From IMG/VR virus record IMGVR_UViG_3300044618_000289, positions 1-25,205 of that record: DNA of 25,205 bases. One strand, given 5' to 3'. The notes below the pieces were generated by a model that saw only the letters and a list, made by a program, of their open reading frames with translations, did not search any database and was not told where the DNA came from. The number at the start of each line of letters is the position of its first letter. The stretch's first letter is position 1. Position numbers and translations under genes: made by a program. Of the stretch, positions 18,183 to 23,791 are shown piece by piece. This stretch comes from a virus.

Positions 18183-18797
18183 TTAAACGGTAAATGCTGG
18201 TGCGCTAGTTGCTAGAGATGATGCAAAGTTGATATTGAATCCCTCGTGTACCAAGGTCATCTGTTCAACAAGTAAAGCATTATCACCAGCGTTTAGGTCT
18301 GAGTATGCTACAGCGGTTGGCCATGCGTTATAAACTTCAAAACGCATTGCTATGTGATCAGTTGCTGATGGAGTGTTCTGAGGAGTTTCACCCGCTGATG
18401 GAATTGGATGAGACAGTACTTGAATCTCTAAGTTGCAACGGAAGTTCTGCTCTTTACCACGGGTAGTTCCTCCACCTTGTACTGTAGCAAACAGATTTCG
18501 CATCCACTCATAGTTTTGATTAGTTCCAAGAATTACACCACGTTGTAATGTAATCGGAGCAAAGGTTGTTTGCCCTGGAATCTGGTGAACAGTGGTGTTG
18601 TATCCACCTTCACGGTAAGGAATAGAGTCGGTTGTAACCGCCATTCCAGAGATTGATGTAAACCCAAAAGTAGTGGCTGCAGCCAAGTTTGTTGTTGCAG
18701 TACTTGCTGTTGGGATAGGTTTAAACGTAACTAAAAATCTAAAGTTACGTAATGGATCGGTAATTAAACTTGACCGATTATTAATGATTGTAGGCAT
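18183..18797 (-). CDS. Tail tube protein (gp19-like)
   Basis: A 204-residue tube subunit. It holds the family features: DPLRNFRFLVTFKPIP near the start, then GFTSISGMAVTTDSIPYREG, VHQIPGQTTFAPITLQRGV and NYEWMRNLFATVQGG, with a C-terminal part MRFEVYNAWPTAVAYSDLNA and the strand VEQMTLVHEGFNI. These are conserved in T4 gp19 and relatives. Hexamer rings of this protein stack inside the sheath. It sits between sheath and chaperone, the usual order. AGGAG lies eleven bases before the ATG. Confidence 0.95.
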   Translation of the reverse strand: MPTIINNRSSLITDPLRNFRFLVTFKPIPTASTATTNLAAATTFGFTSISGMAVTTDSIPYREGGYNTTVHQIPGQTTFAPITLQRGVILGTNQNYEWMRNLFATVQGGGTTRGKEQNFRCNLEIQVLSHPIPSAGETPQNTPSATDHIAMRFEVYNAWPTAVAYSDLNAGDNALLVEQMTLVHEGFNINFASSLATSAPAFTV

Positions 18798-18818: not shown

Positions 18819-20330
18819 TTAGTTCAGCGTCTTTTGGCTGAGGTCGATGACGATGAACTCTGCTGGGTATTGAAGAGCAACACCAACTTGAATGTGAACT
18901 TCACCATTTGCAATATCTGCATCTGAGTTGTTCTCTGCATCGCATTTTACAAAGTAAGCCTGCGCTTGAGTTGCCCCACGCAGACCGCCTTGATTGCGAT
19001 ACTCACTTAAGAATGACCCAATATTAGTATTAATACGGGCCCACAATCTTTCGTCATTATTTTCAAATAATGCAAACTCTGTTAGGTTCTTTAGATTCTT
19101 ACGAATGTAAATTAAAGAACGTCTCATGTTTACATACTTGTTTGCAGTTCCATCTTGCTTTAATGTACGAGCACCCATTACAGAAAGACCAGCACCAGGA
19201 ATTTGTCGAATTGGATTTACTGGAGAAGTACTTGCATTCATAGCATCTAACTCTGAAGATGTAAATGTTTTTTCTACAGAGACGATTCCTAGTACTGGAG
19301 TTGAAATACCAGCAGGGGCTTTAAATACGCCACGGCTTGCATCTGTTGATAGGTAAAGACCAACTACTGCGCCAGTAGGCTCAATAAGACGAAGAGCACC
19401 ACTACTACGTCCTAGTGGATCAGCGATGTACACGTTTGGATAATAGACAGCAGCATTGCTTGTATCTGTAAGAGAACCAGCAAAAGAAACAGCATTTGCT
19501 GCTGTTAAATCTGGATCAGTTCCAATTACAACAAAGCCATTATTGTCTTCCGCCCAAGATGTTGCAGCATCAAATACTGCAACTGTTCCAGATGCTAATG
19601 CATTTGCAACAGGTAGGAATATTACTAGTGGACGGTCAAGAGAAGTAAATCTCTGAAACACTGAAGAACCACCAGCCTTGTAGTTGGTGTAATCAGTAGA
19701 TGCTGTAGCAGTTCCATTTGAACCACTTGTTAGTGGATAGGTTGCTAGAGTAATAGATGCACCAGCATAACCACCAGCAACAGATACTGAGATGTTTGGT
19801 GAAATAATGTTAATTACTGTTGGAGCATAATCACTTGATGCTGAATCATCAAAGACAATATTTTCATATCTTTCTAATAAAATATCATCGTTAATGTCAT
19901 TAGCAATGCCTGACTCTTTATATAGAGTTAAGGTATAAGTGCTTGCTACAGAACCCGCAGTTAATACAACACGAAGGTTGTTACCATCTGTTCCAGCGTT
20001 CTTTGAGGTAACAGTAGCAGCAGTTGCACCGCCACCATCTGTTAAGTTCCTAGAAGCAGCAACAGCGTTAGACGCAAGCAGACGTTGAACATATAGTTCA
20101 CGTCCACCATTAGCAAAGAATGAACCAACCTGGAAGGTGGCTGGATAGGTTGCGTTGTAACCTCCGAAGTACTTGGTAAATTCATACCAAGAATTAACAA
20201 GGGTTACTGTTTCTGGGCCTTGTGCAAAAGGTGCAACAACTGCGCCAGCAGCATTTGCAGTAACTCCACTTGGGAGTACTGGTGGTAGTAGGCGTTCACT
20301 TATGTAAACACCTGGACGGCTATAAGCCAT
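18819..20330 (-). CDS. Contractile tail sheath protein
   Basis: A 503-residue sheath protein. The N-terminus MAYSRPGVYISERLLPPVLP and the following VTLVNSWYEFTKYFGGY are family hallmarks, as are FANGGRELYVQRLLASN and the C-terminal block MRRSLIYIRKNLKNLTEFAL, ERLWARINTNIGSFLSEYRN, QGGLRGATQAQAYFVKCD and INGEVHIQVGVALQYPAEF-like text ending in IVIDLSQ. The central variable domain (about 95-300) is beta-rich and Ser/Thr/Ala-rich. It makes the phage a myovirus. A strong AGGAG precedes the ATG. Confidence 0.97.
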   Translation of the reverse strand: MAYSRPGVYISERLLPPVLPSGVTANAAGAVVAPFAQGPETVTLVNSWYEFTKYFGGYNATYPATFQVGSFFANGGRELYVQRLLASNAVAASRNLTDGGGATAATVTSKNAGTDGNNLRVVLTAGSVASTYTLTLYKESGIANDINDDILLERYENIVFDDSASSDYAPTVINIISPNISVSVAGGYAGASITLATYPLTSGSNGTATASTDYTNYKAGGSSVFQRFTSLDRPLVIFLPVANALASGTVAVFDAATSWAEDNNGFVVIGTDPDLTAANAVSFAGSLTDTSNAAVYYPNVYIADPLGRSSGALRLIEPTGAVVGLYLSTDASRGVFKAPAGISTPVLGIVSVEKTFTSSELDAMNASTSPVNPIRQIPGAGLSVMGARTLKQDGTANKYVNMRRSLIYIRKNLKNLTEFALFENNDERLWARINTNIGSFLSEYRNQGGLRGATQAQAYFVKCDAENNSDADIANGEVHIQVGVALQYPAEFIVIDLSQKTLN

Positions 20331-20361: not shown

Positions 20362-21261
20362 TTATGGTGCCGATTGAGTGTACGAATCGATGGTAGTGAA
20401 CTGAGAGCGATCTATGATCTGACTTCCAGTTGTACCTGTGACGTTTATTTGCAACACTTTGTACAGATTATTGTATGTTTCAGGCGCAATCTCAGAAGAG
20501 ACACGAACTGTCATAGCATTTACAAATAGTCGTTTTCCTTGTTCAGTAATATCTCTCTTAGATATATCAAGAACGTCTAAACGACGAGTAGTTCCAAATA
20601 CAGTATTTGGCCCTGTGTTTAACACAGCAAACCGTAGTGGAACTTTTGTAAATAACAATTGAGATAAAATTTGACGATCATGACGTGGTTGACGAGAGTA
20701 TGAAGTAATTTGATAATCAATATTTACAGGAATTGGATAGTTAATTTCCCAGTTATGTTCATCATTATCCCAAGCAGTGTTTTCGCCAATGACTGTTGGG
20801 TTAGTTAAATACGCTGGCTTTACCTTGCCTCTCATAGCACGAGAGAAGTCTTCAGAAATATCGACCATATCAATAGTGATGTAAGGGTATGACTGAGCAC
20901 GAATTTCCTGGTCAGGTTGTCCAAACCAGACTCCTACTTTTCTAGTAGTACCTGGTGTAGCAGTGCCACCTGAAGCAACGCTTGCAATGTTTGCATTTGT
21001 TTTTGCATATTTAAATGTAGTAGGAGTTGGAATTAAAGTAATGTTGTAGGTGCCATTGAAGGCAGTTGCAGTACCAGCAATAGTAACTGTGTCTCCAACT
21101 TCAAAGCCATGTTCTGTAGATGTAGTTATTGTAACTACATTAGAACTAAGCGCTCTATTTGTAATAGTTTTTGCCGTAGCAGAAGAAGCCTTCTGATCTG
21201 TAACAGTCATCTCTTTTAACAAATCTCTTAATGCTTCATCTTCTTCTAAGAGAAAAGTCAT
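20362..21261 (-). CDS. Tail terminator candidate with inserted beta domain
   Basis: A 299-residue protein just upstream of the sheath, where the terminator (gp15 or gpU-type) is expected. The N-terminal helix MTFLLEEDEALRDLLKEMTV and a later VGVWFGQPDQEIRAQSYPYI, TIDMVDISEDFSRAMRGK and INYPIPVNIDYQITSYSRQP fit a terminator fold. Residues about 28-105 are a different beta module with STEHGFEVGDTVTIAGTATA, FNGTYNITLIPTPTTFKYA, a repeat type found in many phage fibres, placed between the helix and the strand. An assignment by position and fold hints only; a neck protein is the alternative. Confidence 0.65.
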   Translation of the reverse strand: MTFLLEEDEALRDLLKEMTVTDQKASSATAKTITNRALSSNVVTITTSTEHGFEVGDTVTIAGTATAFNGTYNITLIPTPTTFKYAKTNANIASVASGGTATPGTTRKVGVWFGQPDQEIRAQSYPYITIDMVDISEDFSRAMRGKVKPAYLTNPTVIGENTAWDNDEHNWEINYPIPVNIDYQITSYSRQPRHDRQILSQLLFTKVPLRFAVLNTGPNTVFGTTRRLDVLDISKRDITEQGKRLFVNAMTVRVSSEIAPETYNNLYKVLQINVTGTTGSQIIDRSQFTTIDSYTQSAP

Positions 21262-21865: not shown

Positions 21866-21883
21866 AGGCCCCTTTCGGGGCCT
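21866..21883 (-). terminator. Intrinsic terminator after the tiny-gene array
   Basis: On the minus strand: AGGCCCC-GAAA-GGGGCCT, a perfect seven-pair GC-rich stem with a GNRA loop, followed by TTCTTCTTT. It ends transcripts that come from the array of small basic genes. Confidence 0.88.
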
Positions 21884-21908: not shown

Positions 21909-22028
21909 TTAGACGATTTTCTTTTTCTTCTTCTTCTTTAGCGCCTTAAAATCTGCGCCAGTAATTTTATCAGCAGGCTTTGCAGCGTTAGCAATCTTCA
22001 TCTGCTTAGGGCTTAGTGACTTCTTCAT
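21909..22028 (-). CDS. 39-residue Lys-rich protein
   Basis: A short ORF starting at the ATG at 22028, with TAATG coupling to the previous stop. The protein MKKSLSPKQMKIANAAKPAD, followed by KITGADFKALKKKKKKKIV, matches a phrase ('MKIA..A.P.DKITG.DF..L' followed by lysines) that I associate with small proteins of aquatic phages. It is the last gene before the terminator. Its strong charge suggests nucleic-acid contact. Role unknown. Confidence 0.75.
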   Translation of the reverse strand: MKKSLSPKQMKIANAAKPADKITGADFKALKKKKKKKIV

Positions 22029-22093
22029 TACTTACCTTTCTGGCAAGTGGAACACTTGCACTTGCAGTTTTTCATGTCGCACTTAAGAGCCAT
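22028..22093 (-). CDS. 21-residue Cys-rich microprotein
   Basis: An ORF of 22 codons, TAATG-coupled on both sides. The product MALKCDMKNCKCKCSTCQKG(K) has five cysteines (residues 5, 10, 12, 14, 17). C-x-C-x-C-x2-C clustering is metallothionein-like and would fit zinc or other metal binding. It is very short, so the call rests on the exact junctions and on the Cys pattern shared with its neighbours. Confidence 0.5.
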   Translation of the reverse strand: MALKCDMKNCKCKCSTCQKGK

Positions 22094-22212
22094 TATTTTT
22101 TGTCCTTCTTCTTCTTATCTGTCTTCTTCTTAGCATACTTCTTATTAGCAGCGGCTAGAGTCTTCTCTCCATGCTTGTTCTTAGGCTGCATACAGCCACA
22201 GGTAGCGCACAT
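22093..22212 (-). CDS. 39-residue protein with MCATCGC start and Lys-rich tail
   Basis: An ORF between TAATG junctions. It starts MCATCGCMQPKNKHG and runs into KTLAAANKKYAKKKTDKKKK. The CATCGC cluster (three Cys in six residues) can bind metal or form a disulfide; the tail is highly basic. The same seven first residues start the neighbouring gene (22212-22301), so the two look like a tandem duplication with divergent tails. Function unknown. Confidence 0.65.
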   Translation of the reverse strand: MCATCGCMQPKNKHGEKTLAAANKKYAKKKTDKKKKDKK

Positions 22213-22301
22213 TATTTACCCTTTGGCTTTGGCTTGGCTTTTGGACCCTTACCGAATCCTGGCTGACCCTTTTTCTTACCACATCCACATGTTGCACACA
22301 T
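22212..22301 (-). CDS. 29-residue protein with MCATCGC start
   Basis: An ORF starting at the ATG at 22301, with a weak AGGAAA upstream. The product MCATCGCGKKKGQPGFGKGP and then KAKPKPKGK is Lys/Gly/Pro-rich. It shares its first seven residues with the next gene, and its TAA overlaps that gene's ATG. A short Cys cluster plus a basic tail is the only visible feature. Confidence 0.6.
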   Translation of the reverse strand: MCATCGCGKKKGQPGFGKGPKAKPKPKGK

Positions 22302-22310
22302 TGGCTTTTC

Positions 22311-22547
22311 CTATCTATGTCTTGCCGTTTTTTTGGCAATTGTTTTTGGTTGTTTTACAAACTGCTTTCCCTTGCTATTGCCTTCTGCTTTAGCACGGTT
22401 GGTAGCAGCCTTTTCTGAAGGAGTAAGAGTATCCCACGCTTTGTCTGGTAGGTAACGCTTTTTACCTTTAGATTCTTTGCCATCTGAAGTGCGCCATTTT
22501 TCATTGCCCCACTTCTTCAGGGATTGTTGTGATTTTGCAAGAGCCAT
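22311..22547 (-). CDS. Small basic phage protein (78 aa)
   Basis: I use the ATG at 22547, just after the previous stop. The product MALAKSQQSLKKWGNEKWRT goes on with SDGKESKGKKRYLPDKAWDT, LTPSEKAATNRAKAEGNSKG and a basic end (KKTARHR). The phrase KW-RT-SGK-RYLP-AW-L-P-EKAAT-R is a recurring phage domain of unknown function. It is Lys/Arg-rich without membrane segments. A longer frame exists upstream but overlaps the previous gene. Confidence 0.85.
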   Translation of the reverse strand: MALAKSQQSLKKWGNEKWRTSDGKESKGKKRYLPDKAWDTLTPSEKAATNRAKAEGNSKGKQFVKQPKTIAKKTARHR

Positions 22548-22548
22548 C

Positions 22549-22743
22549 TTAGTTCTTGTAACCTCCGCCTGACTTCTTATACTCAGCAGCAAGAAGTTGA
22601 GCCTTACGAGCAGACCATTCTCCTGGATCTCCGCCCTTAGTTCCAGCCTTTATCTTTTTAAATAAACTCTTACGCATTCCAGGCTTAGTGTAATTACCAG
22701 CCTCATTTACTTTTGACTTTGGTTTTGCTGCTTTTTTTGGCAC
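22549..22743 (-). CDS. Small basic phage protein (64 aa), GTG start
   Basis: I start at GTG 22743, with GGAGGAG (22750-22756) six bases upstream. The product PKKAAKPKSKVNEAGNYTKP, GMRKSLFKKIKAGTKGGDPG, EWSARKAQLLAAEYKKSGGG holds 'SKVN-AGNYTKPGMRK-LF-IKAG-KGG-PG-WSARKAQ-LA-YK--GGGYK', a recurring small domain of unknown function in aquatic phages. The beginning overlaps the end of the 44-residue gene by 41 bases in another frame. Confidence 0.85.
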   Translation of the reverse strand: MPKKAAKPKSKVNEAGNYTKPGMRKSLFKKIKAGTKGGDPGEWSARKAQLLAAEYKKSGGGYKN

Positions 22744-22837
22744 TCTTAACTCCTCCACTCTTTGGTACACAGTTAGGAACTCTCTTACCATTCTTCATCT
22801 TAAAACCTTTTTGAACGTAACCTTCCCAACAAGCCAC
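22703..22837 (-). CDS. 44-residue protein with KNGKRVPNCVP motif, GTG start
   Basis: An ORF starting at GTG 22837, which overlaps the previous TAG by one base (TAGTG). The product MACWEGYVQKGFKMKNGKRV, PNCVPKSGGVKSAKKSSKTK, VKSK contains 'CW-GY-G-K-KNGK-VPNCVP', which recurs in small phage proteins. It has two Cys (3, 23) and a Lys/Ser tail. The last 41 bases also code the start of the following gene. Confidence 0.7.
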   Translation of the reverse strand: MACWEGYVQKGFKMKNGKRVPNCVPKSGGVKSAKKSSKTKVKSK

Positions 22838-23097
22838 TAGCAATCCCACTTTCTTAGTGCTAGTGCTTTACGAGTTGGCTTGCCATTCTTTTCCATAGGT
22901 CCTGGCATTCCACCCATTCTTGCACAGAATGATTTACGACGGGCTGCAGACTTCTTAGACTTCTTTGCTTGCTTAGCAGATACAGGTGGCTTTAATGTTC
23001 CGCCAGTCTCACGCTTGTATGATGCACGACCTTTAGCATTTAATCCACCCTCTGGATTTTTGCCTTCCTTACGTTGCCACGCTGCTGTCTTTGCCAT
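22837..23097 (-). CDS. Small basic phage protein (86 aa, DUF6321-like)
   Basis: The product MAKTAAWQRKEGKNPEGGLN, AKGRASYKRETGGTLKPPVS, SFCARMGGMPGPMEKNGKPT, RKALALRKWDC matches a phage family with 'W-RKEGKNP-GGLN-KGR-SY-R-TG--LK-PV' and 'F-ARM-GMPGPM---G-PTR-ALALR-W'. I associate it with DUF6321, though the number is from memory. It is highly basic. It starts on the stop of the previous gene. Confidence 0.85.
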   Translation of the reverse strand: MAKTAAWQRKEGKNPEGGLNAKGRASYKRETGGTLKPPVSAKQAKKSKKSAARRKSFCARMGGMPGPMEKNGKPTRKALALRKWDC

Positions 23098-23348: not shown

Positions 23349-23530
23349 CAGGTCACCGACTTCTTATGTTTATAACGAATTGGGGCTTTAGGCTTTCTCA
23401 CTATGCCGCCCTTCTTTCTCTTTAATCTGGCACCACCAGCCTCATATTTACTCTCAGTAACATTTGTTTGAATATTTTTTTGTGGCTGCTTACCAGCCCT
23501 TGCTCCGATGTTCCTGCGCCGTCTTGCCAT
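23348..23530 (-). CDS. Small Arg/Lys-rich protein (60 aa)
   Basis: The product MARRRRNIGARAGKQPQKNI, QTNVTESKYEAGGARLKRKK, GGIVRKPKAPIRYKHKKSVT is almost wholly basic and low in hydrophobic residues, so probably disordered and nucleic-acid binding. It shares single bases with both neighbouring stops and starts. Family not recognised. Confidence 0.78.
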   Translation of the reverse strand: MARRRRNIGARAGKQPQKNIQTNVTESKYEAGGARLKRKKGGIVRKPKAPIRYKHKKSVT

Positions 23531-23706
23531 TACTTACTCTTTTTCTTCTTTGACATTCCCGCTTCGCTCATTGCAATAGCAACAGCCTGCTTCTTTGATT
23601 TAACAACTGGGCCTTTACCAGGACCCTTCTTACCACTATGAAGTTTACCTTCTTTGTACTCCTTCATAACCTTTTCAACTTTGCCTTTTGCTTTTTTAGT
23701 TGCCAT
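23530..23706 (-). CDS. Small Lys-rich protein (58 aa, DUF6496-like)
   Basis: The product MATKKAKGKVEKVMKEYKEG, KLHSGKKGPGKGPVVKSKKQ, AVAIAMSEAGMSKKKKSK carries 'KVM-E-K-GKLHSG--G--VKS-KQA-AIA-SEA', a small domain found in phages and bacteria that I associate with DUF6496. Three in-frame ATGs exist (23712, 23709, 23706). I choose the third because AGAGG (23713-23717) is then six bases upstream. Confidence 0.83.
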   Translation of the reverse strand: MATKKAKGKVEKVMKEYKEGKLHSGKKGPGKGPVVKSKKQAVAIAMSEAGMSKKKKSK

Positions 23707-23791
23707 CATCATCCTCTTCTATTTGGTCATCTAATTCTACCGCATCAAACTCAAAGAGAGATGGGTCTAATAACTCCTCAAAATTTCCCAA
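23696..23791 (-). CDS. Possible 31-residue acidic protein, TTG start
   Basis: An open frame between the connector gene and the Lys-rich array. From TTG at 23791 (three bases after the connector stop) it codes LGNFEELLDPSLFEFDAVEL followed by DDQIEEDDDGN and overlaps the next gene. The strong acidity contrasts with its basic neighbours. There is no clear ribosome site, so it is only a candidate. Confidence 0.4.
   Translation of the reverse strand: MGNFEELLDPSLFEFDAVELDDQIEEDDDGN

Follow-up and report, generated by a model that had tools for sequence, protein, structure and literature searches.

Metallothioneins are short, cysteine-rich proteins that act as metal buffers. A more compact thiolate site lies at the N-terminus of E. 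coli HypB, whose gene reads MCTTCGCG at its start. As described in the review PMC7055735, this N-terminus binds Ni(II) through a CXXCGC motif with a sub-picomolar Kd, in a planar, four-coordinate site formed by Cys2, Cys5, Cys7 and the N-terminal amine, and the review regards a high-affinity site of this kind as peculiar to the E. coli protein. In ITC experiments at pH 5.5 (PMC6848105), the peptides CTTCGCG and MCTTCGCGEG bound Cu and bound neither Ni nor Zn.

Here we describe a HypB-like start in phage microproteins. The window, which is the whole stretch of DNA analysed, comprises the entire 25,205-base IMG/VR record IMGVR_UViG_3300044618_000289, and this record may itself be a fragment. The original prediction, that two neighbouring ORFs share the start MCATCGC and then diverge into different basic tails, describes both ORFs correctly, and they belong to the following run:

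22212..22301, minus strand: ORF A (slot 1), 29 aa, MCATCGCGKKKGQPGFGKGPKAKPKPKGK, the MCATCGC head followed by the A tail GKKKGQPGFGKGP...
22281..22301, minus strand: head of ORF A, with the codons TGT GCA ACA TGT GGA TGT after ATG
22093..22212, minus strand: ORF B (slot 2), 39 aa, MCATCGCMQPKNKHGEKTLAAANKKYAKKKTDKKKKDKK, the MCATCGC head followed by the B tail KHGxKTLxAANKKY
22192..22212, minus strand: head of ORF B, with the codons TGC GCT ACC TGT GGC TGT after ATG
22028..22093, minus strand: ORF C, 21 aa, Cys-rich MALKCDMKNCKCKCSTCQKGK, lacking the head
21909..22028, minus strand: ORF D, 39 aa, a degenerate EF-hand-like module (SPKQMKIANAAKPADKITGADFKALK), head-less here
21866..21883, minus strand: terminator-like hairpin (AGGCCCCGAAAGGGGCCT, then T-rich) that closes the microprotein run, a consensus match only

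The four ORFs are chained by one-base overlaps (TAATG). Beyond ATG, the heads of A and B use different codons at four of six positions, and every change is synonymous. Each of the two ORFs has three cysteines in a single CxxCxC, which does not fit a zinc ribbon with its two CxxC-type knuckles.

The phage heads share with HypB a Met, Cys2, two free residues and Cys5-Gly6-Cys7, placed at the very N-terminus. The independently built NCBIfam model HypB_prefix_1 (NF053667) matched ORF B with 20.6 bits (E 0.00088) and ORF A with 19.2 bits (E 0.0023), both below its curated cut-off of 30 bits, and these were the only two places matched in the window record. At E up to 1 the model also matched 9 of 9 B-type members, always below the cut-off; a score over the cut-off was found in 0 of 10 records. 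The ORFs are not HypB itself, since the GTPase domain (TIGR00073) of HypB, the hydrogenase/urease nickel GTPase, had 0 matches in the window record and ORFs A and B have only 29 and 39 aa. Unlike in HypB, the phage head is followed by shuffled basic modules rather than a GTPase domain, in whole proteins that spanned 11-75 aa in a first scan, and it occurs in phage contigs near structural genes.

Several slot-1 relatives look like miniature metallothioneins, being likewise very short and rich in CxC and CxxC with Lys spacers. Additional CxC clusters are seen in, for example, MCATCGCKKGKCKTKSCKCKCCK and MCAKCGCGCKAGKPAKGCKCTCATCK, and there are slot-1 relatives with 8 cysteines in 23-33 residues, unlike the window ORFs A and B with three each. 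No Pfam family was found in the 6 Cys-rich members tested.

Searches beyond uncultured phages returned little. When 50,697 named phage records were searched by tblastn, neither ORF A nor a B-type protein of 47 aa had a match, even with E allowed up to 10, and a 74-aa protein that joins the head to the A tail, a Cys cluster and an EF-like tail gave weak matches to the EF tail only (19 records, best E 0.6). In bacterial and archaeal genome contigs, none of 447 pattern stretches was confirmed by the B-type alignment, and the A-type pattern gave 0 matches. No relative of ORF B was found among solved structures at E up to 10. Streptomyces phage LuckySocke, which by its tail sheath is among the nearest named relatives, had no [M/V/L]CxxCxC start in the 25.9 kb examined. 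The literature searched contained none of MCATCGC, MCAACGC, KITGADF, DGKLEGSDF, KHGMKTL or PGFGKGP, nothing that links metallothionein with Cys-rich proteins of phage genomes or viral metagenomes, and nothing on small lysine-rich proteins of phages in freshwater Actinobacteria.

Frames this short, which no Pfam family and no PHROGs family covers at a meaningful score (the same holds for a B-type relative), could be opened by chance in Lys-rich low-complexity DNA, and the repeated start would then be a coincidence. The counts leave this explanation practically no probability. The exact MCATCGC-head pattern had at least 120 matches in IMG/VR viral contigs, as compared with 6 contigs for the reversed order MCGCTAC. 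As the exact-pattern loci had been picked by the head itself, we also ran tests that were blind to it. A B-tail anchor, [DN]KHGMKT, listed 120 matches, from which three other proteins were set aside; among the matches listed, 117 of 117 genuine B tails were preceded by [M/V/L start]C[A/S/N]TCGC, in 97 of them by exactly MCATCGC. An A-tail anchor, G[QE]PGFGKG, gave 119 matches, and once 3 at contig edges and 2 unrelated ones had been set aside, an MCxxCGC start was present in 114 of 114 genuine cases. A third anchor was the sheath protein; of its 592 confirmed relatives we took the best 80, and hence near relatives of the window phage. In all 38 of these loci with at least 3.5 kb of upstream sequence (the 42 with less are excluded from the count), at least one MCxxCGC ORF lay 1.4-2.7 kb upstream, and 17 of the 38 had two. 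Finally, a new set of 76 loci anchored on the sheath (774,128 bases) contained 68 short ORFs with MCxxCGC and 0 with each of six permuted heads. The observation of a shared head is real, and no refutation, as stops in these frames or as unconserved first codons, emerged from the B-tail, A-tail or sheath-anchored sets.

The codons of the head indicate what is being conserved. Among 120 distinct B and 73 distinct A ORFs, the residues encoded by codons 2, 5, 6 and 7 never change, and the codons themselves differ synonymously in 22-50% of pairs (28-49% in the B ORFs). Cys2, Cys5, Gly6 and Cys7 are invariant in both tail-anchored sets, and residues 3 and 4 vary, residue 4 differing in 68% of pairs among the A ORFs. 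As the codons vary synonymously with residues 2, 5, 6 and 7 fixed and residue 4 free to change in A ORFs, the constraint acts on the protein, in the form MCxxCGC. The proposed comparison of synonymous changes in the shared codons thus bears out a short N-terminal Cys cluster selected at the protein level, but corrects its form, which is not MCATCGC. It also contradicts the idea of an element acting as nucleic acid, such as a leader, a translational enhancer or a recombination site, that reads MCATCGC by accident. Swapped tails behind a constant start are what a recombination seed would allow; however, third codon positions vary freely and first and second positions do not, with 52 distinct 21-nt heads among the 120 B ORFs, and we consider such an element very improbable.

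Because the head is arranged like the start of HypB that binds nickel and is carried by many related phages, it is probably a small metal-binding site. A functional metal or thiol site at the N-terminal Cys cluster, as originally suggested, is the best reading of the HypB layout and the HypB_prefix_1 matches, from which we infer both metal binding and its geometry. Our main reading, to which we give a probability of roughly 55%, is that ORFs A and B are metal-binding microproteins of the late region of the phage genome, in which a HypB-like thiolate hook is mounted on cationic tails. According to this reading, the MCxxCGC hook would bind a single thiophilic metal ion, most likely either Ni(II) or Cu and less likely Zn, through Cys2, Cys5, Cys7 and its free N-terminal amine, in the manner of the HypB N-terminus. 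A Met that precedes Cys is normally removed. The Lys-rich tail would presumably anchor the peptide, once loaded, to DNA, RNA or some other acidic surface. The cassette as a whole, the Cys-rich ORF C and the metallothionein-like forms of slot 1 included, might then serve as a metal buffer or carrier late in infection, a role with which the slot-1 relatives carrying 8 cysteines agree. Nickel in particular is disfavoured by the pH 5.5 peptide result, by the description of the site as unique to E. coli HypB and by the NicO transporter, found in 0 of 18 related records with the positive control detected. The Ni-superoxide dismutase (Sod_Ni) was found in 0 of 40 records, an uninformative count, as the control genomes were equally silent.

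The genomic setting bears on two further explanations. All window genes of known kind are on the minus strand: tail sheath, tail tube and baseplate proteins, then a DnaB-like helicase and a primase. The sheath, tube and baseplate genes identify the phage as contractile-tailed. A run of small basic genes lies between 24.3 kb and the tail genes, with ORFs A-D at its end; the genes around these ORFs include:

23530..23712, minus strand: DUF6496 small basic protein (E 5.5e-11), syntenic in relatives
22837..23097, minus strand: DUF6321 small basic protein (E 5.9e-26), syntenic in relatives
22549..22791, minus strand: phrog_17747 small basic protein (function unknown), syntenic in relatives
22311..22592, minus strand: phrog_14910 small basic protein (function unknown), just upstream of ORF A, syntenic in relatives
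18819..20330, minus strand: tail sheath gene (phrog_23, E 1.7e-45)
18183-18797, minus strand: tail tube gene

In the loci inspected for gene order, n177 and small basic genes come before slot 1 and slot 2, and n68, n106, n299, sheath and tube follow, where the n labels stand for unnamed window genes by their length in aa. The DUF6321, DUF6496, phrog_14910 and phrog_17747 proteins belong to the same cassette as ORFs A and B, are of comparable size and are likewise Lys-rich, and differ from them in lacking the N-terminal Cys head.

It is conceivable, if rather unlikely, that the head is a metal-free redox or cross-linking cluster, whose disulfides link the cationic microproteins with one another or with proteins of the virion, making a covalent basic scaffold in the capsid or on the genome. 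The genes do lie among structural genes: they adjoin the tail genes in the window phage, and in the three contigs checked (L014, L019 and L075) the head ORF follows the major head protein gene (phrog_1357) by ~1-1.5 kb. The strongly basic tails would also suit such a scaffold. However, we read the exact 2-5-7 spacing of the cysteines, the invariant Gly6 and the fixed distance from the start as chelate geometry, and the loss of a single Cys, perhaps tolerable to a cross-linker, was not seen in either tail-anchored set.

Still more doubtful is a role as DNA-condensing or packaging factors, in which the cationic tail does the work and the head is a zinc-stapled dimerisation tag, with two heads per Zn(II). 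Clearly basic tails in 348 of 354 distinct head proteins, the small basic proteins that neighbour them in the cassette and the location among structural genes are all consistent with this. On the other hand, the tails differ widely, some being rich in Pro, Gly or Asn and not purely in Lys, which would be odd if tail binding were the whole function, and in the ITC study the HypB peptide did not bind Zn at pH 5.5 (PMC6848105).

Behind the fixed head the basic tails are indeed changeable, as had been predicted, and they are drawn from recurring modules. Joined to the head across loci are the A module (GxPGFGKG), the B module (KHGxKTLxAANKKF), a CTCGTCKxCK cluster, an EF-like loop (LDxDKDGKLEGSDFAALR), its degenerate form (KITGADFKALK) and a C-terminal KKGM motif. 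The suggestion that only the head is under selection was wrong, as the tails are conserved, shuffled modules: in the B tail P10, K13, H14, G15, K17, T18, A22 and K24 are kept in 9 of 9 chosen members (one further locus, L453, departs), and the A, EF and D tails recur likewise. The CKCKCSTCQKG ending of ORF C reappears behind an MCKSCGC head in another locus, the ORF D module is joined behind the head in five loci, and in two loci (L067 and L171) a single protein consists of head, A module, Cys cluster and EF module, loosely the separate window ORFs A, C and D.

Our architecture sample, which includes loci chosen by the B tail, holds 535 head ORFs from 313 loci, or 354 distinct proteins. It contains 221 adjacent head-ORF pairs, 196 of them with a one-base overlap. 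Among 160 distinct pairs in this partly B-tail-selected sample, the B tail came second in at least 127 and first in at least 3. The tandem duplication that had been proposed for the pair is unlikely in a simple, recent form, because synonymous differences separate the head codons of paired ORFs, and the tail types in the two slots differ across phages.

One may tentatively propose, at considerably lower probability than our main reading, a modular metallo-microprotein system of an uncultured phage clade. Here a HypB-type hook would be combined with shuffled cationic, Cys-rich, calcium-loop or other modules in two fixed slots beside the tail genes. It would either supply the virion with a transition metal or carry metal to or from the host late in infection. 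We found no description, in the literature searched, of a phage-specific modular architecture built on an N-terminal metal-thiolate peptide. Annotation usually drops microproteins of this length. In the present case, a large group of uncultured phages strictly conserves a start of seven residues, and since this start matches a metal site already characterised biochemically, a synthetic peptide can be used to test its function. Should the metal binding be confirmed, phages would be shown to possess microproteins dedicated to transition metals, and the family would clearly exemplify module shuffling at the scale of 20-70 residues.

Several further observations concern the window and its neighbours. 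Relatives of DUF6321 are present in 476 records of named phages, mainly cyanophages and pelagiphages. Neither DUF6321 nor DUF6496 is named in the literature searched, and a search for DUF5872 gave one table row, in an algal-virus paper. Residues 29-99 of the 299-aa protein encoded before the sheath (20362-21261) match virion structural profiles; one relative has a shorter version of 226 aa, and these residues may therefore be an inserted domain. Rfam and tRNA searches each gave 0 matches in the window. An actinobacterial host, suggested by the sheath match and the 39.9% G+C, is only a guess.

The EF-like tail has the DxDxDG...D spacing of EF-hand and dockerin calcium loops, and one member matched Pfam Dockerin_1 (E 0.0026) and EF-hand_1 (E 0.0095), both below gathering scores. 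It differs from them in being one short loop; ORF D is degenerate and has lost most of the acidic ligands, and the loop DxDxDGxxxxxD is absent from ORFs A and B. Most proteins found by an EF-tail anchor start MCxxCGC (MCKSCGC, MCKGCGC, MCAMCGC and others), the exceptions being two with a different Cys cluster (L099, L208), head-less ones (e.g. L017, L136, L151, L216) and two larger proteins (L207, L209). With the degenerate-EF anchor, MCxTCGC was present in 6 of 151; the rest were mostly head-less and a few start MCxxCGC. Head-less copies of the EF-like module and of its degenerate form (SPKQKKIAxAAxPxDKITGADFKALK) occur in many contigs, and copies also lie inside larger proteins; examples are 21909-22028 of the window and L207, L209, L339, L342, L362 and L375, with a weak prohead match in L209 (phrog_1064, E 2.3e-4). 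The module appears to be a mini-module in wide use among phages.

The MCATCGC head was also seen with unlike, less Lys-rich tails (e.g. NYTKYNHGTQGMKVP, KHINYKHRAGEM and GSKVVNQDDNYGTINPYGI) in five contigs with no detected sheath homolog, the three with a major head protein gene described above together with L073 and L078. These sequences point to reuse of the head across phage types. In L008 a head ORF adjoins a primase gene. A Lys-rich module, KKQDAKxxKGMxxxxKxxFxKxDKxMDKKKPS..., occurs in the same cassette with or without MCxxCGC in six loci (L005, L020, L033, L065, L110 and L130). Lastly, the C-terminus [ST]M[VNP][RK]KKGM ends proteins with unlike middles in five loci (L030, L039, L057, L110 and L329) and in many B-type loci, so that the C-terminus, like the N-terminus, is a shared module.
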